Assembly: GCA_024684115.1 (NCBI GenBank)
Contig: JAIKXP010000103.1
Coordinates: 1 to 37,755 of the forward strand
Source: Sphaerochaetaceae bacterium
GTDB lineage: Bacteria; Spirochaetota; Spirochaetia; Sphaerochaetales; Sphaerochaetaceae
DNA: 37,755 nt
Reading direction: 5' to 3'
Shown: positions 6,586-10,853 of the stretch, piece after piece
How the letters are laid out: every line of letters begins with the position of its first letter
Numbering within the stretch: the stretch's first letter is position 1
The notes under the pieces: generated by a model
What the model was told of the DNA's origin: nothing
Databases searched by the model: none
Seen by the model: the letters and a program-made list of their open reading frames with translations, nothing else
Position numbers and translations under genes: made by a program

Positions 6586-7848
6586 ATGGAGCTTTATAAG
6601 GCAAATATTCTTTACTCCCGGTCCTTTGATGAGATGGTTGTCTTTAACGACTCCTGCATTGCCGTCGAAGACGGAAAAGTTGAAGGAATATATGAGTCTG
6701 TTCCGGATAAGTTCAAGAACGTAAAAGTTAACGACTACTCGGGTAAGACCATAATACCTGCCTTCTCCGATCTTCACGTCCACGCACCCCAGTATGAGCA
6801 GAGGGGAATGGGAATGGACCTTCTTCTTGAAGACTGGCTTAATACCTACACCTTTCCGGAGGAAGCAAAGTATAAAGACATAGACTATGCAAAGGCGGTG
6901 TATGACAGGTTCTCAGATGATCTGGTTAAAAACGGAACCTTTCATGCGGTGTGTTTTGCAACCATACACAGGGAAGCTACCGAATACCTTGTAAAAAACC
7001 TTGAGGAGAGGGGAATCCGCTCATTTGTCGGAAAAGTCAACATGGACACTTCCTCCCCGTCCTTCCTCTGTGAGACTATATCTGAATCCCTTACGGAAAC
7101 AGAGGCCTTTATTGAACACACAGCCTGCAACAGATTCTCTAAACCCATACTCATGCCGCGCTTTACTCCGGTTTGCAGCCAGAGATTACTTGAAGGACTT
7201 GGAAAGCTTGGAAGAAAGTACCATGTGGGACTTCACACACACCTTGTTGAATCCATCTGGGAGGAGGAGACAGCAAGAAAGCTCTTTCCTTCCTTCAGCT
7301 GTGACACTGAGGTTTATGAAGCACTGGGACTGATGGATAACGGGCCGGTAATCGGAGCCCACTTCATCTTCCCGTCCGAGAACGACATAAGGATACTGAA
7401 AAAACACGGGGGCTGTGCTGTGCATTGCCCGGAGGCAACGGTAAATGTTATTGCAGGCATAATGAGGGTCTCTTACCTCCATGAGAGGGGGATTAATCTT
7501 GCAATAGGCACGGATGTGGGAGCCGCTCCGTCAGTTAAGGTCTACAGGCAGATAGCTGAGGCCGTGAGACTGTCAAAGATAAAGAACTTCTACGAGGGAG
7601 AGGGCAGCCCTTCCATTTCCTTTGAAAACGCATTTTACATGGCAACGAAGGGAGCCTCTTCAGTGTTTGAAAATACCGGCAGTTTTGATAAGGGCTGTGA
7701 CTTTGATGCCCTTGTGATAGATGATCTGTCGGATGAGCAGCGCAGGCTTACCCCGCAGCAGAACATAGAGCGCTTCTGCTATTGCGGAGATGAAAGGGAT
7801 ATCTGTGCCGGATTTATCAGGGGTAAAAAAAATAACCTACAGGGATAA
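6586..7848 (+). CDS. guaD: Guanine deaminase (amidohydrolase superfamily)
   Basis: A 420-aa zinc amidohydrolase predicted to hydrolyse guanine to xanthine and ammonia in purine salvage. Metal ligands are visible: H64-x-H66 (SDLHVHAPQY), H217 (GLHTHLVES), H259 (IGAHFIF) and D310 (IGTDVG); E222 is the likely proton shuttle. The substrate-recognition motif MPRFTPVCS (190-198) matches the guanine deaminase PRFxPTCS signature, which separates it from chlorohydrolases and cytosine deaminases. AGGAGAG precedes the ATG, 11 nt after the murD stop, so it is co-transcribed with murD. The last codons and the stop lie inside the hairpin that terminates the convergent 29-codon gene. Confidence 0.88.
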   Translation: MELYKANILYSRSFDEMVVFNDSCIAVEDGKVEGIYESVPDKFKNVKVNDYSGKTIIPAFSDLHVHAPQYEQRGMGMDLLLEDWLNTYTFPEEAKYKDIDYAKAVYDRFSDDLVKNGTFHAVCFATIHREATEYLVKNLEERGIRSFVGKVNMDTSSPSFLCETISESLTETEAFIEHTACNRFSKPILMPRFTPVCSQRLLEGLGKLGRKYHVGLHTHLVESIWEEETARKLFPSFSCDTEVYEALGLMDNGPVIGAHFIFPSENDIRILKKHGGCAVHCPEATVNVIAGIMRVSYLHERGINLAIGTDVGAAPSVKVYRQIAEAVRLSKIKNFYEGEGSPSISFENAFYMATKGASSVFENTGSFDKGCDFDALVIDDLSDEQRRLTPQQNIERFCYCGDERDICAGFIRGKKNNLQG

Positions 7849-7862
7849 ACCCGGTAGGTTAT
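7823..7862 (-). terminator. Terminator of the 29-aa gene, overlapping the guaD stop codon
   Basis: A 9-bp perfect stem (arms 7832-7840 and 7854-7862), with an inner GGG/CCC pairing and a short loop. On the minus strand it is followed by an unbroken T tract (seven A on plus, 7825-7831). The guaD TAA (7846-7848) is in the loop. The plus side after the hairpin is not T-rich, so the element mainly serves the minus-strand gene. Confidence 0.7.
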
Positions 7863-7887: not shown

Positions 7888-7977
7888 TTACTTCTTCTTA
7901 TGTCTCATCATTCTGAGCTTTTTCTTTCTTTTATGAGTAGCAATCTTATGCTTCTTTCTTTTTCTTCCACAAGGCAC
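7888..7977 (-). CDS. 29-aa AURKAIP1/COX24 (mS38)-like basic ribosomal-type protein
   Basis: A 29-codon gene with GTG start at 7977 and TAA at 7888-7890. The product starts MPCGRKRKKHKIATHKR and ends RMMRHKKK; about 60 percent of residues are Lys, Arg or His. From memory this closely matches the tiny 'AURKAIP1/COX24 domain' proteins of Bacteroidota (MPSGKKRKRHK...ATHKRKKRLR...RHKKK pattern), which are related to the mitochondrial small-subunit protein mS38. A role in the 30S subunit is inferred from that. Support for a real gene: AAGGAG placed 7 nt before the GTG, a promoter with a 17-nt spacer upstream (8032-8060), and a terminator downstream. It lies next to the S6-SSB-S18 ribosomal operon, on the opposite strand. 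Confidence 0.82.
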   Translation of the reverse strand: MPCGRKRKKHKIATHKRKKKLRMMRHKKK

Positions 7978-8031
7978 TGCAGAACTCCTTATTCTCCATA
8001 AACCGGAGTTAGATTTGTAATTACAGCGGTT

Positions 8032-8060
8032 ATTATCCTGATTTTGATAAAAACGGTCAA
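8032..8060 (-). promoter_or_regulatory. Promoter of the 29-aa ribosomal-type gene
   Basis: On the minus strand TTGACC (8055-8060) and GATAAT (8032-8037) are separated by exactly 17 nt; each matches the sigma-70 consensus at five of six bases. Transcription would begin near 8025, giving a leader of about 48 nt. A second TATAAT lies further upstream on this strand (8088-8093) with a 19-nt spacer to TTGATA. Confidence 0.6.
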
Positions 8061-8137: not shown

Positions 8138-8152
8138 GAGAGTCGCCTCTTT

Positions 8153-8169
8153 ATCCGCCGTTGGCGGAT
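8153..8169 (+). promoter_or_regulatory. Leader hairpin of rpsF (possible S6:S18 autoregulatory site)
   Basis: ATCCGCC / GGCGGAT form a perfect 7-bp stem closed by GTT, in the predicted rpsF 5' leader 28 nt before the start codon. Many bacteria carry an mRNA structure here that binds the S6:S18 complex through a conserved CCG; a CCG is present both in the stem and in TCCGT just before the ribosome-binding site. The match to that motif is a guess. Confidence 0.4.
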
Positions 8170-8196
8170 CATATTTATAGTCCGTAAGGAGGAACC

Positions 8197-8475
8197 ATGA
8201 GAAATTATGAGTTCACTGTCATCTTCGATGCTAACGAAGAAATGACAGAAAAAGGGATGGAATTTGTTTCATCACAGTTTGAAGCTTCCAAGGTTGAAGT
8301 TACCAGAAAGGAAGACATGGGCGTAAAGAATCTCGCCTATCAGATCAAGAAGCAGGACAAAGGTCACTATTTCTATTTTGAGCTTTCTGCTGACCCGAAG
8401 ACAATTAACCTGATGAGTGCAGAAATGCTTCTTCAGGGTTCAATCCTCAAATTCCTGTTCGTCGTAAAGAACTGA
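8197..8475 (+). CDS. rpsF: 30S ribosomal protein S6 (bS6)
   Basis: A 92-aa protein with the bS6 fold: MRNYEFTVIFDANEE at the N-terminus, GVKNLAYQIKKQDKGHYFYFEL in the centre and a C-terminal strand (SILKFLFVVKN). Length is typical (about 92-100 aa before tails) and it lacks the acidic C-terminal tail of E. coli S6. It binds S18 on the platform of the small subunit. GTAAGGAGG is an excellent Shine-Dalgarno. First gene of the rpsF-ssb-rpsR unit. Confidence 0.96.
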   Translation: MRNYEFTVIFDANEEMTEKGMEFVSSQFEASKVEVTRKEDMGVKNLAYQIKKQDKGHYFYFELSADPKTINLMSAEMLLQGSILKFLFVVKN

Positions 8476-9295: not shown

Positions 9296-10231
9296 ATGGA
9301 TCGTAAACAGAAAGCAGAATACAGGAATATATTTTTGATTCTGATGGTCTTGCTGAGTATTATCATGTCAAGGCTGTCCATGGGACTGTTTATCTTTCCC
9401 ATTCCTGTACTGCTGGCTGTTAACGGTGTCAAAGACACAAGAAAGGCAGTTCTTGTCCATCTTGCATCTACAGTCGGTGTTGTAGGAACCTACGTGGTTT
9501 CAAACAGTGTTCTTTTTACGCAGGAGTACATGACGGTAGCATTTCTGGGACTTGTTTTCCCGCTTACCATCTCTCTTGCAGCACTGATCTGGACCGCCTT
9601 AAGGGATTTCAGCAACTCTGTACTGAGGAAGCTGGTTATCTGCAGCATTCCTTCGGCACTGATTGCACTCTGCTTTGCACTGTGGCTCTGTTCAAATGCA
9701 TCTATTGAATCCGTGAACAACATGAAGACCGCGTATTCAATGATCCTTCCGCAGGAGCTGGTAGGGGAAGGCAGTTCAGCAATCATGGACCTCTTCTTTG
9801 TGATTCTGAAATATGCATGTGTTCCGTTTGCAATTCTTCTGCAGGCACTTCCCATCCTTATTTCAGAGTTCATAATCCACAGGGGAGATGAAGAGTGGAA
9901 CTTTGAGTTTGCAAACATGAAAATGCCGTACCCCTTTGTATGGGTTTTCCTTGCACTGCTCGCCTTAAGTGTTATTGTCCCGAGGATAAACGGTATTCCG
10001 GAAGTTGTTTCCGTAGTACTGTGGAACCTCACCTTTGGAATGGCACTGCACTACATTCTGGACGGTATCTCTGTTCTGTTCTCGGTATTGAGACGAAAAA
10101 CACTGAGAATTACACCGTCTACGGTTGTGCTGTGGGTTGCCGTTTCAACCATTATCCCGTACCTGAACATGTTCGTTTACGGCACTCTGCTTATTACGGG
10201 CGTGTTTGAGAACTGGATTAATTTACGCTAA
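9296..10231 (+). CDS. YybS/DUF2232-like polytopic membrane protein
   Basis: A 311-aa protein with about eight hydrophobic segments (roughly residues 10-45, 51-74, 78-101, 112-132, 165-193, 212-231, 236-264 and 277-307). No catalytic motif is visible. It lies 6 nt after rpsR, with the Shine-Dalgarno AGGAAG inside the last rpsR codons, and just before rplI. In Bacillus, yybS (DUF2232) lies in the same rplI-dnaC neighbourhood, and length and topology fit that family. Function is unknown; the call rests on position and topology, not on a recognised motif. Confidence 0.6.
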   Translation: MDRKQKAEYRNIFLILMVLLSIIMSRLSMGLFIFPIPVLLAVNGVKDTRKAVLVHLASTVGVVGTYVVSNSVLFTQEYMTVAFLGLVFPLTISLAALIWTALRDFSNSVLRKLVICSIPSALIALCFALWLCSNASIESVNNMKTAYSMILPQELVGEGSSAIMDLFFVILKYACVPFAILLQALPILISEFIIHRGDEEWNFEFANMKMPYPFVWVFLALLALSVIVPRINGIPEVVSVVLWNLTFGMALHYILDGISVLFSVLRRKTLRITPSTVVLWVAVSTIIPYLNMFVYGTLLITGVFENWINLR

Positions 10232-10271: not shown

Positions 10272-10853
10272 ATGAAAATCATTCTGAATCAGGACGTACC
10301 TAACCTCGGAGAAGAGGGAGATGTCTGTGTGGTAAAAGACGGTTACGCACGTAACTATCTTCTTCCTACTGGTGCTGCGGTACTTTACAACAAAGATAAC
10401 CTTGCTGTTTTCAAGAGCAGAGCTGCCGCTATCGAGAAGAGAAAGGCTGAGAAGAGACAGGCTTCAGCAGACCTTAAGAAGAGCCTTGATGAAGTTAAGC
10501 TTCACATTGTTGTTGCTGCCGGTGAATCCGGAAAGCTCTTCGGTTCAGTTACTTCAGCCATGATCCAGGAAGCTCTTGCAAAACTTGGATTCGAAGTTGA
10601 AAAGAAGAGAATTGAAGTTGCTACACACGCAATCAAGATGACCGGTAACTACACTGCAAGAGTTCATCTCTATGAGAATGAATCTTCACTTATCGGACTC
10701 ATTGTTGAGAGCGAAGCTGAAGTTAAGGCTGCACAGAAGGCTGCTGAAAAGGCTGCCAGAGAAGAAGCTGCTGCCGCTGCTGCTGCCGCTGAGGCTGCTG
10801 CTGCAGTAGAGCAGGCTGAAGCTGCTGCAGAAGAAGAAAAGGCAGAGAACTGA
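10272..10853 (+). CDS. rplI: 50S ribosomal protein L9 (bL9) with Ala/Glu-rich C-terminal tail
   Basis: A 193-aa bL9. The N-terminal domain starts MKIILNQDVPNLGEEGDVCVVKDGYARNYLLP in outline, then a long central helix (residues about 42-78) and the C-terminal RNA-binding domain (about 80-150, HIVVAAGESGKLFGSVT). Typical bL9 ends near residue 150; here about 43 more residues run as an Ala/Glu/Lys-rich helix (AAEKAAREEAAAAAAAAEAA). The tail is coded by mixed GCT/GCA/GCC codons, so it is not a simple slipped repeat. AAAAGGAG precedes the ATG. A 5-bp hairpin (10236-10249) lies just upstream. Confidence 0.95.
   Translation: MKIILNQDVPNLGEEGDVCVVKDGYARNYLLPTGAAVLYNKDNLAVFKSRAAAIEKRKAEKRQASADLKKSLDEVKLHIVVAAGESGKLFGSVTSAMIQEALAKLGFEVEKKRIEVATHAIKMTGNYTARVHLYENESSLIGLIVESEAEVKAAQKAAEKAAREEAAAAAAAAEAAAAVEQAEAAAEEEKAEN

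Follow-up and report, generated by a model that had tools for sequence, protein, structure and literature searches.

Protein bS22 of Borrelia burgdorferi (bb0822) was genetically unannotated; its gene has a GUG start codon and carries no transposon insertions (PMC10618245). It was modelled in density at helices h2, h27, h44 and h45 of the 16S rRNA and H68 of the 23S rRNA, was described as analogous to mS38 (by binding site) and to eL41, and was predicted to turn up in other bacteria (PMC10618245). The same assignment was given to the actinobacterial bS22 in the C. acnes ribosome (PMC10085706). Work on Borrelia from 2023 had already put on record both the protein and its presence in spirochaetes, and the gene described here adds a member to that family.

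The window, which is the whole stretch of 37,755 nucleotides that was analyzed, had been read by a first-pass annotation in the context of Treponema; according to its named relatives, the host is instead a rumen Sphaerochaetaceae MAG. On comparison with homologous sequences, positions 7888-7977 almost certainly are a single-copy gene for bS22, a ribosomal protein of the 30S subunit.

The bS22 gene and its neighbors

The features of the locus are the following:

7888-7977, minus strand: bS22 coding sequence, 29 codons, GTG start and TAA stop (from the open reading frame listing, conservation and homology)
7985-7990, minus strand: Shine-Dalgarno site AAGGAG, 7 nt before the GTG, kept in relatives
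7994-8008, minus strand: leader hairpin CUCCG-GUUUA-UGGAG, directly before the Shine-Dalgarno site
8017-8024, minus strand: invariant GTAATTAC, at the predicted transcription start, bS22-specific within Sphaerochaetaceae
8032-8060, minus strand: sigma-70-type promoter TTGACC-17-GATAAT, 10/12 match, conserved in relatives
7825-7862, minus strand: bS22 intrinsic terminator (hairpin and U8)
6586-7848: amidohydrolase-like gene converging with bS22, its 3' end within the bS22 terminator
8146-8192, plus strand: rpsF leader with the layout of the bS6:bS18 motif, CCG at 8182-8184
8197-8475, plus strand: rpsF (bS6), divergent neighbor of bS22

The GTG start, the basic frame and the Shine-Dalgarno spacing given in the first-pass annotation were all borne out, as were the well-spaced promoter and the T-tract terminator. 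The product, MPCGRKRKKHKIATHKRKKKLRMMRHKKK, contains 11 lysines and 5 arginines among its 29 residues (55%), within the size and composition of bS22 (about 28-33 residues, more than half of them K or R). The promoter scan alone performed at chance level (3 found vs. 2.4 expected), and the promoter is credible because of its conservation in relatives. The terminator hairpin has 12 pairs, nine followed by three across a one-by-one internal loop, and the folded stretch reached -19.5 kcal/mol (z -6.3); in relatives, terminators of differing sequence come after bS22. The gene has a promoter, a leader and a terminator of its own both in the window and in these relatives. Rfam gave nothing at gathering level in the window, and the weak matches around the gene were below threshold and taken as chance.

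From 8197 onward the plus strand carries rpsF, ssb, rpsR, a 311-aa hydrophobic frame and rplI, in this order. The 311-aa frame (9296-10231), between rpsR and rplI, is probably membrane-spanning, and the bL9 gene (10272-10853) encodes 193 aa in total, its C-terminal tail being long and rich in Ala and Glu. The bS22 gene is divergent from S6-S18, as had been claimed, but it does not face the rpsF operon, since the two lie back-to-back. This divergent arrangement was found in the window's genus and several others of the Sphaerochaetaceae; in Sphaerochaeta and relatives bS22 lies upstream of rpsF on the same strand, and two genera (g2 and g11) have no rpsF near bS22 in their loci. Co-transcription of bS22 and rpsF was ruled out by the intervening terminator, even in the same-strand arrangement, where rpsF has a promoter-like sequence and a leader of its own. 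On both counts bS22 looks like a separate transcription unit. In loci L001-L149, the two orientations within one family, together with the unlinked genera, imply local inversions and moves of the 29-codon unit along with its promoter and terminator.

The start codon also sets this gene apart from its neighbors. Among 98 distinct bS22 genes of the same loci the start was GTG in 81 and ATG in 17, whereas the starts mapped for rpsF, ssb, rpsR and rplI, 251 in total, were ATG without exception; these counts are not independent, since the sequences are related and some loci duplicate each other. That a rare start codon has been retained throughout the class suggests that the gene tolerates slower initiation or benefits from it.

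On the opposite strand, the rpsF leader has a lower stem, CCUCUUU/AAGGAGG, which includes the Shine-Dalgarno site, and a GUCCG strand before UAAGGAGG. The apical hairpin is strongly covarying. In the leader alignment 98% of the cells were paired, with 19 compensatory cells vs. 6.0 in shuffles. A CCG strand thus placed between the lower stem and the apical hairpin, before rpsF, is the arrangement of the bS6:bS18 autoregulatory motif of rpsF leaders (Matelska 2013 and Fu 2014, as reviewed in PMC10931766). In some rows of the alignment CCA replaces CCG, and Rfam had no match to this leader.

Identity and conservation of the product

When the window peptide was searched against the PDB sequences with phmmer, three chains were retrieved at E ≤ 10, all of them ribosomal and all matched over their full length: 7JIL from Flavobacterium johnsoniae (E 1.7e-7), bS22 of B. 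burgdorferi in 8FMW (E 1.3e-6) and a ribosome chain of 9I5V named "AURKAIP1/COX24 domain-containing protein" (E 2.6e-6). The search lists molecule names, and the organisms of 7JIL and 8FMW were taken from the literature. No solved ribosome from the window's genus was among these matches. A profile built from 18 spirochaetal members reached the Borrelia bS22 of 8FMW at 9.7e-14. These matches agree with the earlier proposal that this spirochaete has a small-subunit protein akin to mS38/COX24. Pfam COX24_C (PF08213), the family to which the proposal pointed, matched neither the window peptide nor 17 relatives at E ≤ 10, nor anything in the genome, and an NCBIfam scan was likewise without a match; this silence is probably due to the very short and compositionally biased peptide. 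The proposed resemblance to mS38 held for the shared binding site (PMC10618245) but not for sequence: the spirochaetal profile retrieved from the PDB only chains of bacterial-type bS22, and no mS38 chain. The suggested kinship to mitochondrial mS38/AURKAIP1 rests on the rRNA pocket that the literature reports as common to both. The family had also been described as mainly one of Bacteroidota, which is too narrow, as Actinomycetota and Spirochaetota have bS22 too.

Near-identical peptides were encoded in 123 of the 139 Sphaerochaetaceae genomes and in 345 of the 393 genomes from the phylum Spirochaetota, nearly always once, and the window genome has one copy; the pattern is that of a single-copy, vertically conserved gene. 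Conservation of the frame, on which the first-pass annotation had staked its reading, therefore held. Synonymous change dominates, the other point on which that reading depended: pN/pS was about 0.11 over the 98 distinct genes, which indicates strong purifying selection. The window's residues recur without change in the products of eight distinct DNA sequences, which differ from the window by at most 10 synonymous and 0 nonsynonymous changes, and 16 of 29 positions were invariant among 18 diverse members. By contrast, bS22 was not found in three genomes that are 95-98% complete (G020, G046 and G476), profile search included. These are possibly losses or assembly gaps, and since a few fairly complete genomes show no bS22, some lineages may be able to do without it.

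A lysine/arginine-rich frame left open by chance in an A-rich intergenic stretch would likewise be very short, of low complexity and started by GTG, and the window has many open frames of 20-40 aa; however, a chance frame would hardly keep the same residues phylum-wide under synonymous divergence or match solved ribosomal chains from end to end, and we regard this explanation as wholly improbable. A peptide of the same ancestry might act outside the mature ribosome, as a nucleic-acid chaperone or as an assembly factor that is later released. Such a role would suit a generically nucleic-acid-binding peptide whose gene is not part of a classical ribosomal operon and, in some genera, lies away from rpsF, but close homologues from two phyla have been built in cryo-EM maps of mature 70S ribosomes, and it is very unlikely.

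The reading as a ribosomal protein is thus the one followed here. We infer that bS22 is present in the ribosome of the window organism and that its exact contacts are those seen in Borrelia. The extremely basic helix of 29 residues would come from a transcript of its own, carrying no other gene, and would occupy the 30S pocket formed by h2, h27, h44 and h45 of the 16S rRNA and touch H68 of the 23S rRNA upon subunit joining. So placed, it should lend stability to the subunit interface and to h44 at its decoding-centre end. Given its distribution, bS22, published for Borrelia, is a ribosomal protein that is near-universal in the phylum Spirochaetota. This matters for models of the spirochaetal decoding centre and for genome annotation, where GTG genes of 29 codons are easily missed.

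The start-site element and the leader hairpin

Of 71 distinct leaders from Sphaerochaetaceae, 61 contain an exact GTAATTAC. It always follows the -10 hexamer by 6-8 nt, which puts it at the predicted +1 of the bS22 transcript, whereas its spacing to the Shine-Dalgarno site ranges between 5 and 67 nt. The element is a perfect 8-bp palindrome and, in an alignment anchored on it, was more conserved than the -10 or the -35. It persists whether bS22 is divergent from rpsF, upstream of it or unlinked to it. A search of the 139 family genomes for TTGAC-N14-22-AAT-N5-9-GTAATTAC gave 112 matches, 105 of which lay just upstream of bS22, as assigned by comparing coordinates by hand with the bS22 positions; the remaining 7 were elsewhere, and the reversed control pattern gave 5. 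Outside the family, 3 matches were obtained in 109 other genomes of the class vs. 4 for the control, and those with a known bS22 position (in G208 and G487) were on contigs other than that of bS22. A wider regulon of the element was considered and rejected: elsewhere in the window genome, the occurrences inspected lay at no recognisable promoter and mostly resembled coding sequence.

Most leaders form a small hairpin in the stretch from the element to the Shine-Dalgarno site; its sequence differs by genus while the pairing is kept. Because automatic alignment masked the hairpin in the window's own clade, the leaders were folded one by one; the mean z was -3.4, and 71% of 55 leaders had p<0.05 against mononucleotide shuffles. 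In the alignment of Sphaerochaeta-type leaders, compensatory changes were observed at 2 of the 8 pairs. Four leaders (L037, L040, L097 and L124) have no hairpin. Mimicry of the 16S rRNA by the leader sequence was also discarded, the likeness being no better than to shuffled 16S.

On balance, we lean toward GTAATTAC and the usual hairpin being a dedicated Sphaerochaetaceae control element that sets the dosage of bS22. Element and hairpin would probably adjust the output of this gene only, at the level of DNA or RNA. At the DNA level, GTAATTAC might be a palindromic operator or a start-site sequence read by a repressor or by RNA polymerase; its perfect symmetry at a fixed distance from the -10, with a conservation that outranks both promoter hexamers, is what such a site would show. 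Nevertheless, no other gene of the window genome was seen with the element at a promoter, and a specific operator would be expected to span more than eight bases, so that we consider this a real possibility, if somewhat short of an even chance. At the RNA level, surplus bS22 could bind element and hairpin as an autoregulatory mRNA site and lower its own translation. Ribosomal proteins often have autogenous leaders (PMC10931766), and the element is gene-specific, independent of location and placed at the predicted 5' end of the mRNA, with the hairpin next to the Shine-Dalgarno site. Against this, the resemblance to 16S rRNA does not exceed chance, the hairpin is missing from the four leaders named above, and GTAATTAC is anchored to the promoter rather than to the Shine-Dalgarno site; autoregulation is a tentative reading that we hold to be rather doubtful.

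For the dedicated control element as such, no earlier account of the regulation of a bS22 gene was found in the literature on bS22 and autoregulation, whose coverage was incomplete, and the transcript-start element is the sole part of this locus for which no description was found there. It offers a concrete case of candidate control, specific to one gene, for the ribosomal protein bS22.

Comparison with known systems

The closest described relative is bS22 of B. burgdorferi (bb0822; 8FMW chain V), which is like the window peptide in length and in the pattern MPCGRKRK..I.THKRKKK.R..RHKK, with 22 of 28 residues identical, and whose gene shares the GTG start and the missing annotation (PMC10618245). 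Unlike the window, the Borreliaceae loci examined (L076 and L086) have no adjacent rpsF and no upstream GTAATTAC. The bS22 of F. johnsoniae (7JIL) aligns over 29 residues with the same architecture, but belongs to a different phylum and has S3 where the window has C3. Moreover, mRNAs of Bacteroidota are naturally without Shine-Dalgarno sites (PMC6847099), whereas the window gene has AAGGAG.

The bS22 of Actinomycetota (M. smegmatis and C. acnes) and mS38/AURKAIP1 occupy the same rRNA pocket (PMC10618245; PMC10085706). In contrast to the proteins above, they were not retrieved by sequence and are longer, mS38 considerably so. Finally, the bS6:bS18 leader of rpsF is, like the bS22 leader, a ribosomal-protein leader, and both lie in the same intergenic region, but it belongs to rpsF, and the bS22 leader differs from it in sequence and shape.
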